Below the pieces are notes generated by a model. The model was not told the origin of the DNA, did not search any database, and saw only the letters and a list, made by a program, of their open reading frames with translations. Below are positions 9,332 through 45,891 of a stretch of 64,000 bases of DNA, piece after piece. This DNA is from an uncultured Bacteroidota bacterium (GTDB lineage: Bacteria; Bacteroidota; Bacteroidia; NS11-12g; UBA9320), in contig CAKZLB010000013.1 of the NCBI GenBank assembly GCA_937124965.1, forward strand, positions 425,154-489,153. Direction: 5' to 3'. Position 1 is the stretch's first letter, and every line of letters starts with the position of its first letter. A program made the position numbers and the translations under genes.

Positions 9332-9410
9332 TATGAATCCAATGAAAAGTCACTTGTTTATTTCAGTTAGGTATTTTTCTTACAGTAGAAAAGTAAGCAA
9401 AACCAATCAT

Positions 9411-9418
9411 TACATTTG
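9411..9418 (+). promoter_or_regulatory. -7 box directly before the murF-alr start
   Basis: TACATTTG, then TGTC, then the GTG start at 9423. The match to TAnnTTTG is exact, but no -33 TTG is seen. The layout implies a leaderless mRNA and supports the GTG over the upstream ATG at 9333. Confidence 0.5.
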
Positions 9419-9422
9419 TGTC

Positions 9423-11888
9423 GTGCAATATAGCCTTTCGAAAATATCTCAAATAGTAAAAGGAGTAATTCATGGAAATGGAAATACTATTGTTGAAGAT
9501 GTTTTTATCGATAGTAGAAAGAAAACACAGCCAATCGGTCAATTGTTTATTGCAATTTCTGGCAAACAGCACGATGGCCACAATTACATCAATGGCCTCA
9601 TTAACAATGGATTTAAGAATTTTATTGTTGAAAATTTCCCAACTGCATATTCGCCGAACGTAAACTACATTGTTGTAAAAAACTCGCTAAAAGCAATTCA
9701 AGAACTAGCAGCATATCACAGATCCCAATTTCAATACCCAATAATTGGTATAACTGGATCAAACGGCAAAACGATTGTTAAAGAATGGAGTTATCAATTG
9801 CTTCAAAAGCACTATAACATTTGTAGAAACCCCAGAAGTTATAACAGTCAGGTTGGTGTTCCGTTGTCCGTGTTCCAGTTAAAGGCATCAAACAACCTTG
9901 GGATTTTCGAAGCTGGTATTTCAGAAAAGAATGAAATGTCCAGTCTCACTCGGATAATAAATCCAACTATAGGGATATTCACGAATATAGGTGACGCGCA
10001 CAGTGCAGGATTTTCCAATGAAACTGAGAAAATTTATGAAAAGCTTGAGCTATTTAAAAAATCTAAAACACTAATTTACAGACGCGAAGACAGTCTATTA
10101 ACCGACATTTTAGATCGATTTGCAGGTGATTACAACCTTACTGCAGTAACATGGTCGGAATCTAATGAGGCAACAGTTAAAATTAATAGAAGAGAAATAA
10201 ACGGCTCGAAAACTGATGTACGCCTTTCAGTAAAATCTAAAAAATATCAATTCAGCATTCCTTTCAACGACGATGCCTCCTTTGAAAATGCAATGCATGC
10301 ATGGGTACTTTCTTTACATTTAGGAGTAAGCCAAAACGAAACATCCAAAGCAGTCGAATCTTTACAACCGATTGAAATGCGGTTAAACCAAAAAGCAGGT
10401 ATTAATCAATGCATTATCGTTTCGGATTATTATAATTCTGATCTAACTTCAATCGAGATTGCGCTAAATTGGCTTAATCAAAGGCACTCACAACTAAATA
10501 AGACTATTGTACTTAGTGATGTAGAACAATCTAGTATTTCAGATAGAGATTTATATACTTCAATTCATACTATATTACAAAAACATAATTACCAACGACT
10601 CATTGCTATTGGTCCGCGTTTAAAAGGCTGCGACTATGTTTTTGATTTACCAAAACAAGTGTTTTATGAAACAACTGAGGATTTTCTTCGTGAAGTAAAT
10701 TCAAGCGATTTTTACAACGAGGCAATTCTATTGAAAGGAGGACGATCCTTTGAATTTGAAAAAATAGAAAAATTCTTACAACATCAAGTGCATAACACGG
10801 TGCTTGAAATAAATTTAAATGCTCTTCAGAATAACCTAAACTATTTCAAGTCTCAAATTTCGAAAGAAACCAAAATAATGGTGATGGTAAAAGCTTTCTC
10901 TTACGGAAGTGGTGGTGATGAAATTGCTCATTTTTTGCAATACAATAACATTGATTATTTGGGCGTAGCGTATGCTGATGAAGGTGTTGCCTTAAGGCGA
11001 AAAGGGATTCATCTGCCTATAATGGTGATGAATTCAGACGAGGATTCTTACGACGTGATGTTGGAAAATGACTTAGAACCTGAATTATATAATTTCAGAA
11101 GTTTACACCTGTTTGCGGAAGCGGTTAAATCTAAAGCCATACATGCTGCAAAAGCGCATATAGAAGTCAATACGGGAATGAATAGATTAGGATTTGACCC
11201 TAATGAATTGGAAGAACTGGTAAACATATTAACCCACGAAAAAGACATTAAAATACAGTCTGTTTTTAGCCATTTTGCCAATGCCGAAGACCCTAAAATG
11301 GACAGCTTTACAATTAGTCAGATTGCTGAACTTAATGCTTTTCACGTTGGTTTGAGCAGTAGTTTAGGCTATCCCGTTTCAAAACATATTTGTAATTCGG
11401 CTGGAACCATTCGTTTTAAAGAAGCTCATTTTGATATGATTCGTTTAGGCGTGGGACTTTACGGATTTCATCCGGTTGAAAAATCAGGTAAACACATAGA
11501 GCCTGTAAGTACTTTAAAATCCTTTATATCTCAAATACGAAAGGTGGATCGTGACACAGGAATTGGGTATGGCAGTCATGACGCGAGCAATAATCAACGA
11601 ACCATTGCAGTGGTTGCCATAGGTTATGCTGATGGTTTGTCACGATTGCTAAGTCAAGGGAACGGTTTTTTTGTTATTAATGGTAAAGAAGCTCCAATTG
11701 TTGGAAATGTCTGCATGGACATGACAATGTGTGATGTAAGTGGTATTGATTGTCGGGAAGGAGATGAAGTGATAATATTCGGGAAACATCCTAGCATTGT
11801 TGATTTAGCCAAAAGAACTGGCACCATACCGTATGAAATCATGACCTCGGTTTCCCAGCGTGTAAAACGAATTTACTCTGAAGAATAA
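9423..11888 (+). CDS. murF-alr: Bifunctional UDP-MurNAc-tripeptide-D-Ala-D-Ala ligase / alanine racemase
   Basis: A fusion characteristic of Bacteroidota. Residues about 1-460 are MurF (adds D-Ala-D-Ala to UDP-MurNAc-tripeptide), with the ATP loop ITGSNGKTIVKEW (about 110-122) and FEAGISEKNEM. Residues about 462-821 are Alr, which makes D-Ala from L-Ala, with the PLP lysine in VMVKAFSYGSG (K490) and the catalytic Tyr in GIGYG (Y716). I choose the GTG at 9423 because the family begins with MxYSLxxI and residues encoded upstream (from 9333) are not family-like and nearly touch recX. Making D-Ala and using it in one chain links two consecutive peptidoglycan steps. Confidence 0.93.
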   Translation: MQYSLSKISQIVKGVIHGNGNTIVEDVFIDSRKKTQPIGQLFIAISGKQHDGHNYINGLINNGFKNFIVENFPTAYSPNVNYIVVKNSLKAIQELAAYHRSQFQYPIIGITGSNGKTIVKEWSYQLLQKHYNICRNPRSYNSQVGVPLSVFQLKASNNLGIFEAGISEKNEMSSLTRIINPTIGIFTNIGDAHSAGFSNETEKIYEKLELFKKSKTLIYRREDSLLTDILDRFAGDYNLTAVTWSESNEATVKINRREINGSKTDVRLSVKSKKYQFSIPFNDDASFENAMHAWVLSLHLGVSQNETSKAVESLQPIEMRLNQKAGINQCIIVSDYYNSDLTSIEIALNWLNQRHSQLNKTIVLSDVEQSSISDRDLYTSIHTILQKHNYQRLIAIGPRLKGCDYVFDLPKQVFYETTEDFLREVNSSDFYNEAILLKGGRSFEFEKIEKFLQHQVHNTVLEINLNALQNNLNYFKSQISKETKIMVMVKAFSYGSGGDEIAHFLQYNNIDYLGVAYADEGVALRRKGIHLPIMVMNSDEDSYDVMLENDLEPELYNFRSLHLFAEAVKSKAIHAAKAHIEVNTGMNRLGFDPNELEELVNILTHEKDIKIQSVFSHFANAEDPKMDSFTISQIAELNAFHVGLSSSLGYPVSKHICNSAGTIRFKEAHFDMIRLGVGLYGFHPVEKSGKHIEPVSTLKSFISQIRKVDRDTGIGYGSHDASNNQRTIAVVAIGYADGLSRLLSQGNGFFVINGKEAPIVGNVCMDMTMCDVSGIDCREGDEVIIFGKHPSIVDLAKRTGTIPYEIMTSVSQRVKRIYSEE

Positions 11889-38821: not shown

Positions 38822-39598
38822 ATGAGCTTTCAATATATACGAACTGAATTAGTAGAAAACCTTTTCACGATTACGATTAATCGTGAGGACAAAATGAATG
38901 CATTAAATGCTACACTGCTTCAAGAGATCAAGCAAGCTGTTAATCAAGCAGAAAAAGATGCGGAGGTATATGGAATTATTATAACAGGTTCTGGAAGTAA
39001 AGCTTTCGCTGCAGGAGCAGACATCGCAGAATTTAAAGACTTTAATACCGTTGAAGGCCAAAAGTTAAGTAGTGACGGACATGAAGTTATGAATACTGTG
39101 GAGCGATGCTTGAAACCAGTAGTTGCTGCAGTAAATGGCTTTGCTTTAGGTGGAGGTTGTGAGTTGGCTATGGCTTGTCACATTCGAATCGCATCACCAA
39201 ATGCTAAATTTGGTCAACCTGAAGTAAATCTTGGATTAATTCCTGGGTACGGAGGAACTCAACGATTAATTCAGTTAGTCGGAAAAGGAAAAGCGATTGA
39301 ATTATTAACCACAGCTGATATGATAAACGCAGACGAAGCGCACAGATTAGGTCTGGTAAATCACATAGTGGATCAGGAGAAACTTATGGAGACTTGTAGA
39401 GCGATGTTAAATAAGATTGCGGGTAAATCTCCGCAAGGTATTTCTAAAACCTTAGAATGTATTCAAGCATTTTATGATGATACAAAGAATGGCATGGATA
39501 CGGAAATAGGGTTCTTTGGTTCTTGCTTTGGCACATCAGAATTCAAGGAGGGAACTTCTGCTTTCTTAGAAAAAAGAAAAGCAAATTATAGGAATTGA
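38822..39598 (+). CDS. Enoyl-CoA hydratase / crotonase-family protein
   Basis: 258 residues with both catalytic glutamates of true enoyl-CoA hydratases: E114 in GFALGGGCELAMAC and E134 in GQPEVNLGLIPGYGGTQRL. The oxyanion loop is AFAAGADIAEF. It probably hydrates 2-enoyl-CoA in fatty acid or amino acid breakdown, which would feed the propionyl/methylmalonyl-CoA route of the divergent mutase. The family is broad, so the exact acyl-CoA is not assigned. Confidence 0.92.
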   Translation: MSFQYIRTELVENLFTITINREDKMNALNATLLQEIKQAVNQAEKDAEVYGIIITGSGSKAFAAGADIAEFKDFNTVEGQKLSSDGHEVMNTVERCLKPVVAAVNGFALGGGCELAMACHIRIASPNAKFGQPEVNLGLIPGYGGTQRLIQLVGKGKAIELLTTADMINADEAHRLGLVNHIVDQEKLMETCRAMLNKIAGKSPQGISKTLECIQAFYDDTKNGMDTEIGFFGSCFGTSEFKEGTSAFLEKRKANYRN

Positions 39599-39623
39599 AT
39601 GAACTTTCTATTTTGGCACAGCG

Positions 39624-39655
39624 TTTGTTTAATTAGCATCGAACAAGTAAATTTG
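39624..39655 (+). promoter_or_regulatory. Promoter of the first DUF1573 gene
   Basis: TTTG at 39624-39627, 20 bases, TAAATTTG at 39648-39655. This is one of the best consensus promoters in the window; the leader is about 25 bases. Confidence 0.75.
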
Positions 39656-39687
39656 ACATTAAATATTTAAACACGACATTAAACATT

Positions 39688-40137
39688 ATGAAACGAACAT
39701 TTGTCACACTGTTAATAGCTATAGGATTTGTAGCTTTCACTCAGGCACAAGAAACTAAAACTGTATCAGCTGACGGAAATACTGGTGCAAAAATTAAATT
39801 CGAAAAATTAGAGCACAACTTCGGTACAATCAAAGAAGGAACCCAAGCAACAGTAACATTTACGTTTACAAATGTTGGTAACGAGCCTTTAGTATTGAAC
39901 TCTGTTAGAGCATCATGCGGTTGTACAACTCCAAAGTGGACACGTGAGCCAATCGCTCCGGGAGCAACTGGTGAAGTAACTGCCATTTACAATTCTCAAG
40001 GTAGACCAGGTAAATTCACGAAAGTTATTACTGTAAAGTATAATGGTGAAGAAGGTTCTGAATCATTAACTATCAGAGGAACTGTAGAAAGCGCTCCAGC
40101 TGAAGCAGCTCCACCAGTTCAAGCAAACCCGCAATAA
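39688..40137 (+). CDS. DUF1573 secreted protein, copy 1
   Basis: 149 residues with a signal peptide (AFTQAQ) and one DUF1573 Ig-like domain: KLEHNFGTIKEGTQATVTF, then SCGCTTPKW with the two conserved cysteines, PIAPGATGEV and YNSQGRPGKF. The Pro/Ala-rich end may be flexible. The family is abundant in Bacteroidota and its job is unknown. A strong promoter in front and a terminator behind make this copy monocistronic. Confidence 0.9.
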   Translation: MKRTFVTLLIAIGFVAFTQAQETKTVSADGNTGAKIKFEKLEHNFGTIKEGTQATVTFTFTNVGNEPLVLNSVRASCGCTTPKWTREPIAPGATGEVTAIYNSQGRPGKFTKVITVKYNGEEGSESLTIRGTVESAPAEAAPPVQANPQ

Positions 40138-40156
40138 GAAAAATATTACAACTTTA

Positions 40157-40188
40157 AAACCCAGGCTAAATTGTCTGGGTTTTTTTTT
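40157..40188 (+). terminator. Terminator after DUF1573 copy 1
   Basis: AAACCCAG ... CTGGGTTT followed by a long T-run. It separates copy 1 from copies 2-4. Confidence 0.88.
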
Positions 40189-40224
40189 GGCATTATTATC
40201 GTTTGGTTAGAATAAAAAAACATT

Positions 40225-40665
40225 ATGAAATTTAGAATTTACCTATCCACTTTCAGCTTACTGCTTCTTGCTTCTACTTCAGCTTTTGCTCAAGACGAAG
40301 CACCTGTTGAGGAAAAGAAAGTTATTACACTAACACCTGTTGGACAATCAAAAATAGTTTTTGAGGAAACCGAATTTGATTTTGGAGCTATTAATCAAGG
40401 AGAAACTGTAACGCATGTGTTCAAATTTGTGAACGAAGGTTCTGCTCCATTGGTCATTTCTAGAATAAAAACACCATGTGGTTGTACAGCTCCGTCTTGG
40501 TCTAAAGAACCAATTGCTCCAGGAGATTCTGGAGAGATTACTGTTTCATTTAATTCTACTGGTAAAGTGGGAAATCAAATTAAGGCACTTCCGGTTATTT
40601 TTAACAGTGAAATGAGTCCAGCAATGATCACGATAAAAGCAACCGTAAAACCACCAACTGAATAA
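40225..40665 (+). CDS. DUF1573 secreted protein, copy 2
   Basis: 146 residues with a signal peptide (STSAFAQ) and a DUF1573 domain: EETEFDFGAINQGETVTH, PCGCTAPSW, PIAPGDSGEITV, FNSTGKVGNQ. The WSKEPIAPG core is nearly the same as in copy 1, so these are paralogues. It opens the second transcript unit of the array. Confidence 0.9.
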   Translation: MKFRIYLSTFSLLLLASTSAFAQDEAPVEEKKVITLTPVGQSKIVFEETEFDFGAINQGETVTHVFKFVNEGSAPLVISRIKTPCGCTAPSWSKEPIAPGDSGEITVSFNSTGKVGNQIKALPVIFNSEMSPAMITIKATVKPPTE

Positions 40666-40675
40666 GATTCACTTG

Positions 40676-41110
40676 ATGAAAATTAAGAAGTCACTCTTTT
40701 TATTTTTGGTGTTTGGAATCAATGGAGTTGGATTTGCACAAAACATTAACTCCATTGACTCTGCTTCTTCTGAAGTTACAGATACCATAATTCAACCGAT
40801 AATCAATTTTACACTCGAATCTTTTGACTTAAGTGATATTCCAGAAGACACAACGATAACAAGAGTATTTACGTTCACCAATGAAGGTACCGATTCCCTA
40901 ACCATTTTAGGTGTTTCTGCGGATTGCAGTTGTACCGTACCTGAATATACTGAAGGGACTTTTGCTGTTGGAGAGAAAGGATATATCAAAGTGACGTATA
41001 ATAGTAAAGGCAATGCCGGAAGATTTATTCAATATGTCACCGTTTTGCATAATGCAGGAGAGGGATACACATTCCTTACTTTAAAAGGGTTTGTCGTCAA
41101 ACAGTTATAG
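40676..41110 (+). CDS. DUF1573 secreted protein, copy 3
   Basis: 144 residues from the ATG at 40676; a TTG three bases earlier could also be read but gives no advantage. Signal peptide ends near GFAQ. The domain is more divergent: the cysteine motif is DCSCTVPEY instead of CGCTxPxW, and the spacing region is richer in Thr/Ser. It lies 10 bases after copy 2, so it is co-transcribed. Confidence 0.87.
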   Translation: MKIKKSLFLFLVFGINGVGFAQNINSIDSASSEVTDTIIQPIINFTLESFDLSDIPEDTTITRVFTFTNEGTDSLTILGVSADCSCTVPEYTEGTFAVGEKGYIKVTYNSKGNAGRFIQYVTVLHNAGEGYTFLTLKGFVVKQL

Positions 41111-41113
41111 AAA

Positions 41114-41542
41114 ATGTTTCATAAGCACATACACAGGATTATAGCAATTCTGTTTCTTTCGATTAGTGTGGGCTTTGTAGTTGTGGATTCGCAATCGTCA
41201 GATGCTGCAATAGTTTTAATATCAACGAATCAATTTAATGCAGAATCCAGAACTGTGCAGTTCGACACAGTTACTGAAGGTCGAACGGTTTTGTTTGAAA
41301 TACCTTTCGTAAATACAGGAACCAATCCTCTCGTGCTCTCGAGTGTCAAATCTTCATGCGGCTGCTTGACTGTATCCTGGTCCAAAGAGCCACTTCTTTC
41401 CGGTGACACAAGTAAGCTTCGCGGTCGTTTAAGTACTTTGGGAAGAGTTGGGAAATGCACCAAAGCAATTACGATTAAAAGTAATACTCAAACTCCTGTT
41501 AAAATGGTTTATATCAAAGGATACATTAACCCTAAAAACTAA
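41114..41542 (+). CDS. DUF1573 secreted protein, copy 4
   Basis: 142 residues with an N-terminal hydrophobic segment (about 8-25) that may be an uncleaved anchor, then the domain with SCGCLTVSW, LLSGDTSKLRGRL and STLGRVGKC. It is the most divergent copy and the last of the array. Its stop overlaps the convergent PLP-enzyme stop by 4 bases with no terminator visible. Confidence 0.86.
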   Translation: MFHKHIHRIIAILFLSISVGFVVVDSQSSDAAIVLISTNQFNAESRTVQFDTVTEGRTVLFEIPFVNTGTNPLVLSSVKSSCGCLTVSWSKEPLLSGDTSKLRGRLSTLGRVGKCTKAITIKSNTQTPVKMVYIKGYINPKN

Positions 41543-42405
41543 ATTCTCTTTACGTCCAGCCACTTACTGGACATTACCCCAGTCAAACCACCAGTATGAA
41601 TAAAAAGCACGCGCTCTGAAGGCTTAATAACTCCTTCGGAAACTAAATCATACAACGCTTTCATTGATTTGCCTGTGTAAATCGGATCTAACAGAATTCC
41701 CGTTTCTGTGGCGAATTTGGAATTAAATTTTACTTCTGCCTCGCTATACTTCCCAAACCCATTGCCGCAAAACTGTGAGTGTAATGTCCAATTGTCGAAA
41801 AACGTGTCGTGTGCAATACCTTTCTTCAAGTAGTCCGCTCCCTTTAATGCGGCAACCCCATGAATGTGACCAATTCCTTTCGATCCATTTATTACTCCTT
41901 TAAACGTTGTTGAAGTCCCTACAGAAACAAAAACATGATTATAACCATCCAAACCAGTCATAATCTCCTCACAACCTTTTACTCCTTCTATATTGTCTCC
42001 TCCCTCTGGAATAAGGTAATTATTTCCTTCAGGATACAATTTAAGTTTGTAATCGGCTCGAGATATAAACTTTAACTCCATTCCAAATTCCGCACAAAGG
42101 CGTAACACAATGTTTGACCGTTCAGACAATTCATCTCCGCGAACAACACCAATACATGGGATTTTGAATTTCGCACAAGCTGCTGCAGTGGCTATTAAGT
42201 GATTAGAGAATGCTCCACCATACGTGAGGATTCCAGATCTTCCAGAAGATTGATATGCTAAGAGATTATACTTTAGTTTTCGCCATTTATTCCCTGAAAT
42301 AAACGGATGAATCATGTCATCTCGTTTGATATCCAGTTGAACATTAAAACGATTTAAGAAACTAGTTGAAACCTTCTCTAGAGGTGAATAAACGTCGAAC
42401 TTCAT
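41539..42405 (-). CDS. PLP-dependent ACC deaminase / D-cysteine desulfhydrase family enzyme
   Basis: 288 residues of the fold-type II PLP family: RDDMIHPFISGNKWRKLKYN with the PLP lysine K40, YGGAFSNHL, EGGDN, VSVGTSTTFKGV (phosphate loop) and HTGGLTGV. The substrate may be a D-amino acid or a cysteine analogue; members with ACC deaminase activity carry specific residues I cannot confirm. It is the last gene of the receptor/cupin/deiodinase-like operon, overlapping its upstream neighbour by 4 bases. Confidence 0.9.
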   Translation of the reverse strand: MKFDVYSPLEKVSTSFLNRFNVQLDIKRDDMIHPFISGNKWRKLKYNLLAYQSSGRSGILTYGGAFSNHLIATAAACAKFKIPCIGVVRGDELSERSNIVLRLCAEFGMELKFISRADYKLKLYPEGNNYLIPEGGDNIEGVKGCEEIMTGLDGYNHVFVSVGTSTTFKGVINGSKGIGHIHGVAALKGADYLKKGIAHDTFFDNWTLHSQFCGNGFGKYSEAEVKFNSKFATETGILLDPIYTGKSMKALYDLVSEGVIKPSERVLFIHTGGLTGVMSSKWLDVKRI

Positions 42406-43079
42406 TCAAAAAAAACAGCTATCTCTTCAATGCTTTTACGGTTAAGAATAGGCACCTTAGCATCATCTGCTGGAAAACCAACAGGAAGAAGTAGGTATGG
42501 CTTTTCATTTTCTGGCCTCTCTAGAATTTTTGCCAAAAAATTCATTGGACTTGGTGTATGCGTGAGTGTTACGAGTCCAGCTTGATGAATTGCGGAGATC
42601 AGCATCCCACAAGCGATTCCTACAGACTCCTGAACGTAGTAATTCTTTTTCTTCTCTCCTTCGTCAACGTCGTATGTTTTTCTAAATAAGACTATAATCC
42701 AAGGCGCAACTTCTAAGAAAGGTTTATGCCAATCGGTACCAAATTTTTTCAGATCATCTAACCATGCATCGGACATTCGTCCATGATAGTTTTCGTATTC
42801 TTCCTTTTCCGCAGCTTCTCTAATTTTTGATTTTAGGGATGCACTGCTGATAGCGCAAAACGTCCAAGGTTGTTTGTGCGCACCTGACGGTGCGGTACCA
42901 GCAGTGCGAATTATATTTTCTATAACAGATTTAGGAACTGCTTTATCTGAAAACTCTCGTACCGATCGTCTTTGATTCAAATTTTCATAAAACGACTTCG
43001 ACTCTGAGACTACCTTGTCTAAATCATAGTGTTTTGCAACGTACGGCACGAATCCTGAATCTTTATTTACCTTACTCAT
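42402..43079 (-). CDS. Iodotyrosine deiodinase-like flavoprotein (nitroreductase superfamily)
   Basis: 225 residues. FMN-binding RRSVREFSD and APSGAHKQPWTF are those of the nitroreductase fold. The lid region EKEEYENYHGRM...DLKKFGTDWHK closely matches mammalian iodotyrosine deiodinase (IYD), including the residues that close on the amino-acid zwitterion: Glu, Tyr and Lys spaced 4 and 21 apart, here E94, Y98 and K119. VSIACGxL-like and LLPVGFPADDA motifs agree too. Bacterial IYDs reductively remove halide from halotyrosines. The gene overlaps both neighbours (4 and 8 bases), so all are co-translated. Confidence 0.85.
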   Translation of the reverse strand: MSKVNKDSGFVPYVAKHYDLDKVVSESKSFYENLNQRRSVREFSDKAVPKSVIENIIRTAGTAPSGAHKQPWTFCAISSASLKSKIREAAEKEEYENYHGRMSDAWLDDLKKFGTDWHKPFLEVAPWIIVLFRKTYDVDEGEKKKNYYVQESVGIACGMLISAIHQAGLVTLTHTPSPMNFLAKILERPENEKPYLLLPVGFPADDAKVPILNRKSIEEIAVFFE

Positions 43080-43485
43080 TTACCCAAATTCTATCTTTCC
43101 CTTTAAACTCTGGAGCCTGTACAGAGATGACCAATAATGGTTTTCTACTCAACGTCTTAACTGAATGTACTGACCCCTTAGGTATTATTATAACATCACC
43201 CTTTTTTATTTTACTTGTCTGTCCATTGAGCACCATACTAGCTTTACCATCTAAGATTGTCACTACTTCTGTATGCAACACGTGTTTATGAGGCTTCACC
43301 TCATCCTTTATCCATATTGCAAAACTGCTACTTAGCGAATCGGAATAGAGTTTTTTTACGTAAACATTAGCATAGTTCGTTGAGTCCGGTTTTAGTTCAT
43401 CTAGAGCTAAAACCTGACCTTTCACAAATGTTCCACAAAAAAGCAACGAAGCCAATATGATTAGCTTCCAAAAATATGTTTTCAT
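43072..43485 (-). CDS. Secreted cupin-domain protein
   Basis: 137 residues with a signal peptide (ILASLLFCGTFVKGQ) and one small cupin barrel: IKDEVKPHKHVLHTEVV (His ligands), then KGDVIIIPKGSVHSVKTL with the second-motif His. Export is unusual for a small cupin enzyme and places it in the periplasm or outer leaflet. It lies one base after the TonB-dependent receptor gene and overlaps the deiodinase-like gene by 8 bases. Confidence 0.87.
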   Translation of the reverse strand: MKTYFWKLIILASLLFCGTFVKGQVLALDELKPDSTNYANVYVKKLYSDSLSSSFAIWIKDEVKPHKHVLHTEVVTILDGKASMVLNGQTSKIKKGDVIIIPKGSVHSVKTLSRKPLLVISVQAPEFKGKDRIWVNE

Positions 43486-45891
43486 CTAAAAATTAAACTT
43501 GTACCAGAAATTTGGCAATCTACCTAATTGATATTCTTCTGCAAATATTTTTGACCCTGGATTATCTGGATCATCAAAATAACTCTCTTTCAAAACGTTC
43601 TTTGTATCGAGAACGTTAGCGATATCTATTGAAATCTCGTGTGTGGTTTTCTTTGTGTTAATACGAAGACCTATTTTTAAATCTAATCGACTATAGTCTC
43701 TAAACTGATAAATGTTTCTTCTCGCACCATCAATTATTACACTTGCACCATCTGCTATTGTCGCTGCTGTATCTATTGGAGAATATCGCTTTCCTCCACC
43801 GTGCGTATATTTTGCTCCGTAGATTATGGCGTTCTTTTTGTTTGAGCCAAACCTATGCTCGTAACCTCCAAGCGTATTAAAGATGTAGTTTCCATTAAAG
43901 TCAGTATTTCTCTCAATTCCATCACTACCTTTATACTTTGAGTCATAAACTGAAGCCGTAGCCATGAAGTAATAGTTTTTAGTAAAAAACTTCTCTACTG
44001 TTATTTCCAAACCTTGATTAACACCTGTACCCGTATTTTCAAGAACATCAGGGAAGAACCGCTCAAATCCAGAGCCCTGATTTACCAAACTGAATGATGA
44101 TGCAATAACCTCAACTGGCACATTATAAAGCGTTTGGTAATAGATTTCAGATCGAACTCTTAAGTTTCTCTTTATCACTTTTTCATAGGATAAAACTAGA
44201 TGATGGCTTCTTGTTGGTGCAAGATTTTTATTGTGATTATCGTATGTATTACTTACAGAATCAACGAACAATGTGTTGTAAATGTATAGAGGTTGAACTT
44301 GGCTATGCATTCCATATCCAAAGCCTATAGTCTCGTTTGACCTTCTTCGATATTTCACCCCAACGCGCGGCTCCAATGCATTCGACCCACTTTGCGTAAA
44401 ATGCATCGCATGTAGTCCTACATTGGTTGTAATCTTTGACGTTAAACGATACTTCCAGCTTGTATAAGCTCGAGCCATAAGAGGATTGGTTTGAGCATTT
44501 AACAAAACATTCATAGGCTGTGTTAAGTCACGTTCATTTTGTACACTGTCTAAATAGTTTAGACCATATGCATCTATTATCAATCCATATTTTAGATTAC
44601 TCCTCGCGCTATATTTTTTATTTAACGAAGCATGTAAAGTTGTTTTTCCGTGAAGCATTCTAGATCTAGAAACTGGCACTAAAGTCAGGTCAGTATACTC
44701 GTTTGGATTTCTAAAAATCTTGTCGTGATTGGAAAGCACTTGTTGAACATTATGTGCCAAAACAACATTTAACGAGCGTTTTTTTGACAACTGTCTTTGC
44801 AGTGTCGCTCCAACAACTCCCATATTTGTTCTAAAATACTGGTCTCGGTCTTTTTGTCCATAGAGTTCTTGAGTTGGTTCCTGATCGTCGCTAAAAACGA
44901 TATCAATTGAACTTAGACCACCTAATCCAAATATAGCAAACTCTCCTTTCTTCATTGGAAAGTTAAGCTTGATATTTAAATCTTGATATTTTGGTACAGC
45001 ATCAGTTCCTAGATTAATATTTAAAGCACTAAAGATATCAAAGGTTGCATACCGGTATGAAAAAATGAAGCTTGACTTTTTCTCCTTGTTTATAGGTCCC
45101 TCCGCTTGAATTTCAGTACCAAACAAACCAAACTGTCCACTGTATTCTGCTTTGTTGTAGTTTCCATTTCTGAACTTCAAATCGAACACTCCTGAAATCC
45201 CATTACCATATTCTGAAGGAAATGCACTTGTCATAAAGTCAGAATTCCCAACTAACTTATTGTTAATCATACTAATCGGGCCACCTGTCGTACCAGCAAC
45301 TGCAAAATGACTTGGATTAAAAATATCGACACCTTCAAATCTCCATAACAATCCAAGCGGAGAGTTGCCTCTTACCACAATGTCATTACGTTGATCATCC
45401 GTACCAGCTACTCCAGCAAAGTTTTGAGCCATACGTGCAGGGTCTTGCCTACTACCTGGATAGCGTTCAGCTTCTTCAGCATCAAAACTTCTACTACTTA
45501 CTGTAACCATTTCGTTATTACTTCGAGCTTTCGATTTCTTCATTTCAATAACTGCAGTTCCCATCATGTTAGCAGATTCAACCATTTCAATAATTAAGTC
45601 CACCGCTTTTCCGCTGGTAACCATCACATTGTCTCTGGTCACTGGTTCATACCCTACATACTCTATTGATATTCTATGGCGTCCAATTGGAACCTCTAAA
45701 AGTTCAAAATAGCCTTGCTCATCGGTCATTGCCCCAAAGCCTTCTAATGTCTCAATCAACACGGTTGCAGCCGGCAAACCAACTTTCGTGTCAGTATCAA
45801 CAACTCGTCCTGTAATGGTCTGTGTCATTTGACCATATGCTGTCGACACAAGCAATAGAGACAAGGTAAAAATGGGTATAAATCGTTTCAT
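43486..45891 (-). CDS. TonB-dependent receptor with carboxypeptidase-regulatory N-domain
   Basis: 801 residues: signal peptide (VSTAYGQ), a CarboxypepD_reg-like Ig domain (ITGRVVDTDTKVGLPAATV, 23-110), a plug region (about 125-235, with RQDPARMAQNFAGVAGTDD and RGNSPLGLLWRFEGVDIFNP) and a barrel to the end. There is no SusD partner nearby, so this is a stand-alone receptor and not a SusCD pair. It is the first gene of a four-gene operon (receptor, cupin, deiodinase-like, PLP enzyme), which suggests uptake of the compound these enzymes act on. Confidence 0.9.
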   Translation of the reverse strand: MKRFIPIFTLSLLLVSTAYGQMTQTITGRVVDTDTKVGLPAATVLIETLEGFGAMTDEQGYFELLEVPIGRHRISIEYVGYEPVTRDNVMVTSGKAVDLIIEMVESANMMGTAVIEMKKSKARSNNEMVTVSSRSFDAEEAERYPGSRQDPARMAQNFAGVAGTDDQRNDIVVRGNSPLGLLWRFEGVDIFNPSHFAVAGTTGGPISMINNKLVGNSDFMTSAFPSEYGNGISGVFDLKFRNGNYNKAEYSGQFGLFGTEIQAEGPINKEKKSSFIFSYRYATFDIFSALNINLGTDAVPKYQDLNIKLNFPMKKGEFAIFGLGGLSSIDIVFSDDQEPTQELYGQKDRDQYFRTNMGVVGATLQRQLSKKRSLNVVLAHNVQQVLSNHDKIFRNPNEYTDLTLVPVSRSRMLHGKTTLHASLNKKYSARSNLKYGLIIDAYGLNYLDSVQNERDLTQPMNVLLNAQTNPLMARAYTSWKYRLTSKITTNVGLHAMHFTQSGSNALEPRVGVKYRRRSNETIGFGYGMHSQVQPLYIYNTLFVDSVSNTYDNHNKNLAPTRSHHLVLSYEKVIKRNLRVRSEIYYQTLYNVPVEVIASSFSLVNQGSGFERFFPDVLENTGTGVNQGLEITVEKFFTKNYYFMATASVYDSKYKGSDGIERNTDFNGNYIFNTLGGYEHRFGSNKKNAIIYGAKYTHGGGKRYSPIDTAATIADGASVIIDGARRNIYQFRDYSRLDLKIGLRINTKKTTHEISIDIANVLDTKNVLKESYFDDPDNPGSKIFAEEYQLGRLPNFWYKFNF

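Follow-up and report, generated by a model that had tools for sequence, protein, structure and literature searches.

An iodotyrosine deiodinase homolog within a lineage-specific four-gene cluster of an uncultured Bacteroidota bacterium

Organization of the gene cluster

The minus strand of the window (the whole stretch of 64,000 nucleotides that was analyzed) carries four coupled genes, coding for a TonB-dependent receptor-like protein, a small secreted cupin, a flavoprotein related to iodotyrosine deiodinase (IYD) and a fold-type II PLP enzyme (Table 1). The list of open reading frames and direct reading of the sequence place each gene at the coordinates first noted, upholding the original prediction of a coupled operon. 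The ATG of the cupin gene directly follows the TAG stop codon of the receptor gene (a gap of 0 bases), the cupin and flavoprotein genes overlap by 8 bases (ATGAGTAA), and the flavoprotein and PLP genes share 4 bases (ATGA). Junctions of this kind make a single transcript for the four genes likely, and the operon is real and lineage-specific. An enoyl-CoA hydratase gene and four DUF1573 genes, outside the proposed operon, converge on the PLP gene, whose end is overlapped by 4 bases by the facing DUF1573 gene. These DUF1573-type genes, which code for secreted proteins, stand in tandem after the hydratase gene (39688-41542, plus strand), and relatives have one to three copies at this place.

Table 1. 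Genes of the cluster and its convergent neighbors (positions within the window).
Feature	Position	Strand	Evidence or remark
TonB-dependent-receptor-like outer membrane protein, 801 aa	43486..45891	-	PF13715 CarboxypepD_reg, E 1.8e-15; signal peptide; weak plug; predicted barrel
Small secreted cupin, 137 aa	43072..43485	-	PF07883, E 3e-11; N-terminal signal peptide; intact HxH...E...H metal motif
Probable iodotyrosine deiodinase ortholog, 225 aa	42402..43079	-	Glu94, Tyr98, Lys119, Thr175; phmmer, alignment, tree
Fold-type II PLP enzyme, D-cysteine desulfhydrase/ACC deaminase group, 288 aa	41539..42405	-	Lys40, Ser67, Tyr243-Thr244, Thr271
Enoyl-CoA hydratase and four DUF1573 genes, outside the proposed operon	38822..41542	+	Convergent to the PLP gene

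The flavoprotein and the iodotyrosine deiodinase family

Pfam and NCBIfam call the flavoprotein only a nitroreductase, with a sub-threshold match to BluB, which would fit an ordinary nitroreductase or BluB-like protein with no relation to deiodinases. The closest proteins of known structure point elsewhere. In a phmmer search against the PDB, the top match is 5ko7 (E 6.4e-96), the IYD of Haliscomenobacter hydrossis, whose PDB title says only 'Nitroreductase'; human and mouse IYD match at about 1e-60, 6pz0, deposited as an iodotyrosine deiodinase, at 9e-26, and the best nitroreductase outside the IYD group at 6e-11. The H. hydrossis enzyme (5ko7, 5ko8, 5krd) is 63% identical in the alignment over nearly the full length and has the same lid triad and flavin-site residues, while the mammalian enzymes (IYD/DEHAL1; 4ttb, 3gb5) are 47-48% identical. 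The lid triad E94, Y98 and K119 aligns with that of human and mouse IYD, with a spacing from the glutamate of +4/+25, so that the mammalian arrangement of Glu-Tyr-Lys claimed for this protein is confirmed. Thr175 aligns with a threonine of the same two enzymes, the one that contacts the flavin N5, and the triad together with Thr173/Thr175 is invariant in all 24 IYD rows of the alignment.

A tree of 39 nitroreductase-family proteins, 24 of them bearing the triad, places these 24 in one clade (support 93/97) that includes the window flavoprotein and the human, mouse and H. hydrossis enzymes, is recovered in 92% of bootstrap trees and needs a single change to account for the triad. No paralog in the tree set has the triad: both of the genome's further nitroreductases, like the ones from eight other Bacteroidota, branch outside the clade and lack it. 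The tree thus rules out a plain nitroreductase or BluB identity, and with the triad and the grouping with characterized IYDs, far from the genome's own nitroreductases, it leaves that reading with almost no probability. The phylogeny proposed as a check on the deiodinase assignment agrees with the sequence matches and the triad in its favor, and together they argue strongly for a genuine member of the IYD family. Deiodinase activity would follow by analogy with characterized relatives, among which the H. hydrossis enzyme reportedly deiodinates iodotyrosine. Mammalian IYD also debrominates bromotyrosine (PMC4708624).

Since no signal peptide was seen on it, the flavoprotein is predicted to be cytoplasmic. 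It also lacks the N-terminal membrane anchor that mammalian IYD carries. That this IYD-fold enzyme has turned to a different substrate, such as a nitro- or other phenol, in a block unrelated to halogens, is very unlikely: the nitroreductase superfamily switches substrate easily and bacterial IYDs have, as far as we are aware, no settled natural role, but here all the lid residues and the N5 threonine are kept, at 63% identity to the H. hydrossis enzyme. Bacterial IYDs are already known and are common in Bacteroidota; the flavoprotein adds one more protein to this established family, situated inside a lineage-specific gene cluster.

The PLP enzyme

The PLP enzyme belongs to PF00291, of fold type II, and the closest fold to its AlphaFold model (mean pLDDT 87) is the D-cysteine desulfhydrase of Salmonella (4d8t/4d8u). 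With this enzyme and the ACC deaminase group it shares the fold, the catalytic Lys40, Ser67-Asn68 and Tyr243-Thr244, although it is shorter than they are and about 24% identical. ACC deaminase requires an active-site glutamate at 295/296 and Leu322 (PMC4048297); Thr244 and Thr271 occupy these places in the window protein, and an ACC deaminase identity is rejected on these residues. The protein does show the fold type II, the catalytic lysine and, at both positions that tell the two activities apart, the threonines of a D-cysteine desulfhydrase; however, it falls far under the NCBIfam cut-offs of both enzymes, and because its score with TIGR01275 is 104 bits against a curated cut-off of 289, we call it only D-cysteine-desulfhydrase-like. 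Enzymes of the D-cysteine desulfhydrase type carry out beta-elimination on D-amino acids bearing good leaving groups. Tyrosine phenol-lyase is a fold-type I enzyme, so that a tyrosine phenol-lyase-like function is rejected by the different fold of this PF00291 protein. Being D-cysteine-desulfhydrase-like, the PLP enzyme is a poor candidate for cleaving dehalogenated tyrosine.

The receptor and the cupin

In the receptor, which has a signal peptide, CarboxypepD_reg is the sole domain over the Pfam cut-off, and the plug domain expected, along with a 22-stranded barrel, of a TonB-dependent receptor is matched below threshold (E 0.036). Its AlphaFold model is of low confidence (mean pLDDT 57), and TonB-dependent receptors account for every one of the 50 best hits of that model in the PDB. 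The cupin matches both cupin motifs by regular expression, with the HxH...E...H set complete. From its signal peptide, the cupin is predicted to be periplasmic, whereas none was seen on the IYD or the PLP enzyme, placing these two in the cytoplasm. Elsewhere the genome encodes two receptor paralogs, which share 41% and 36% identity with the window protein (G000:C13:164130-166496 and G000:C55:62180-64486, respectively); they have no cupin, IYD or PLP gene as neighbors, because the window holds the only homologs of these genes in the genome.

Distribution of the genes among relatives

IYD relatives are encoded at 557 or more places in one genome collection. Within the family (38 genomes), the PLP gene is found in 32, the cupin gene in 25 and the IYD gene in 19. 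All four genes in the order of the window, up to the convergent DUF1573/enoyl-CoA hydratase genes, are found in six of them, from three genera: the window genome, G032, G033, G034, G036 and G037 (in G033 the receptor gene runs off the contig, the block of G034 is known from short loci only, and loci L024, L067 and L075 were taken as the same records as G036, G033 and G032). A genome of a fourth genus (G012, locus L192) keeps the cupin, IYD and PLP genes together with no receptor gene adjoining. The gene order foreseen by the original prediction is therefore kept across three genera, but only in 6 of the 38 genomes of a single family. Because the order and its tight junctions are maintained at PLP enzyme identities of 49-55% between genomes, selection may be holding the four genes together.

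Outside these genomes the genes come apart. The enoyl-CoA hydratase/DUF1573 genes are the constant neighbors of the PLP gene throughout the family, and this position looks ancestral, because it is kept in G001, G007, G019 and G020, where no IYD gene adjoins. A fused Mur ligase/alanine racemase gene (851 aa), which in the window lies at 9333-11888 of the plus strand and adjoins RecX, is found beside the PLP gene in several relatives. In G001 the IYD gene is flanked by PspC/PadR and biotin-carrier/DUF3078 genes, and its surroundings in G017 and G020, which are unannotated, resemble those of G001 in gene sizes. In G001 and G010 the receptor and cupin genes are close to each other, separated by a single gene on the opposite strand, and no IYD gene accompanies them.

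The presence of the IYD gene is not associated with that of the cupin or the PLP gene. The cupin gene occurs in 13 of 19 IYD-positive and 12 of 19 IYD-negative genomes (Fisher p = 1.0), and the PLP gene in 17 of 19 and 15 of 19, respectively (p = 0.66); these counts take the genomes as independent, and some of the 38 are incomplete, the corresponding values for the 22 near-complete genomes being p = 0.38 (cupin) and 0.48 (PLP gene). Among the best 80 IYD loci from named genomes, 77 have no PLP or cupin homolog in the available flanks, some of which are short. A search for a shared IYD neighbor over 80 Bacteroidota loci returned as the commonest a short-chain dehydrogenase, found for the most part in Saprospiraceae. 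Representative neighbors, judged by sequence, resemble unrelated housekeeping genes.

Possible physiological role

The original prediction joined the four products in one route for import of a halogenated amino acid or related compound, removal of the halide and cleavage of the rest. In such a route, a halogenated tyrosine, or a peptide containing one, would enter through the receptor and be bound or processed by the cupin in the periplasm, after which the IYD would dehalogenate it and the PLP enzyme would degrade what is left. The tight coupling of the genes, the repetition of their order in six genomes of three genera and the conserved cupin-IYD-PLP trio of the fourth genus speak for such a route. 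A dedicated halotyrosine operon would be expected to keep its order and to have its genes co-occurring among relatives, and the 38 family genomes do not show this pattern. Since the genes separate without co-occurrence, and the PLP enzyme resembles D-cysteine desulfhydrases rather than tyrosine-cleaving enzymes, the pathway of import, dehalogenation and cleavage is not supported by the comparison of genomes; with nearly all of the best IYD loci also devoid of PLP and cupin neighbors, we consider it improbable.

The account that we prefer, with a probability of roughly 0.75, is that of a cytoplasmic IYD in a probably co-transcribed cluster whose products probably do not work together as a single pathway of their own. 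The FMN-dependent enzyme would, by analogy with its relatives, most likely catalyze the reductive loss of iodide, bromide or chloride by free halotyrosines, with the Glu-Tyr-Lys lid closing over the amino-acid zwitterion and the threonine at the flavin N5 steering one-electron chemistry. Its gene lies between the receptor-cupin pair and the D-cysteine-desulfhydrase-like gene, probably co-transcribed with them. The receptor is predicted to import some ligand, in which the periplasmic metal-binding cupin may assist, and the PLP enzyme most likely has a task apart from the others, in beta-elimination on D-cysteine or similar D-amino acids.

A literature search on the physiological role of bacterial iodotyrosine deiodinases found no paper. 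IYD is widespread in Bacteroidota and usually stands alone among unrelated genes, suggesting a general scavenging or detoxifying role rather than a fixed pathway.

The tyrosine produced would most likely enter ordinary metabolism, including 4-hydroxyphenylpyruvate dioxygenase (HPPD) and homogentisate dioxygenase encoded elsewhere on the contig. Adjacent genes for a tryptophan-dioxygenase-like protein, HPPD and a divergent, HmgA-like homogentisate dioxygenase lie about 160 kb ahead of the window (L241:5217-8489), and the HPPD/homogentisate dioxygenase pair is a more suitable outlet for the tyrosine than the PLP enzyme. The strict NCBIfam hmgA model found almost nothing and missed the local copy, which was recovered via Pfam, because the Bacteroidota copies are divergent. 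It is conceivable, but doubtful, that in the three genera the block forms a dedicated unit for uptake and dehalogenation of halotyrosine (or of a tyrosine-containing compound) that feeds this homogentisate route, which would give bacterial IYD a defined physiological pathway. The six genomes that carry the whole block, which are close relatives, all have two HPPD copies, against 5 of the 32 others; as a lead only, this doubling would agree with a connection of the block to tyrosine breakdown.
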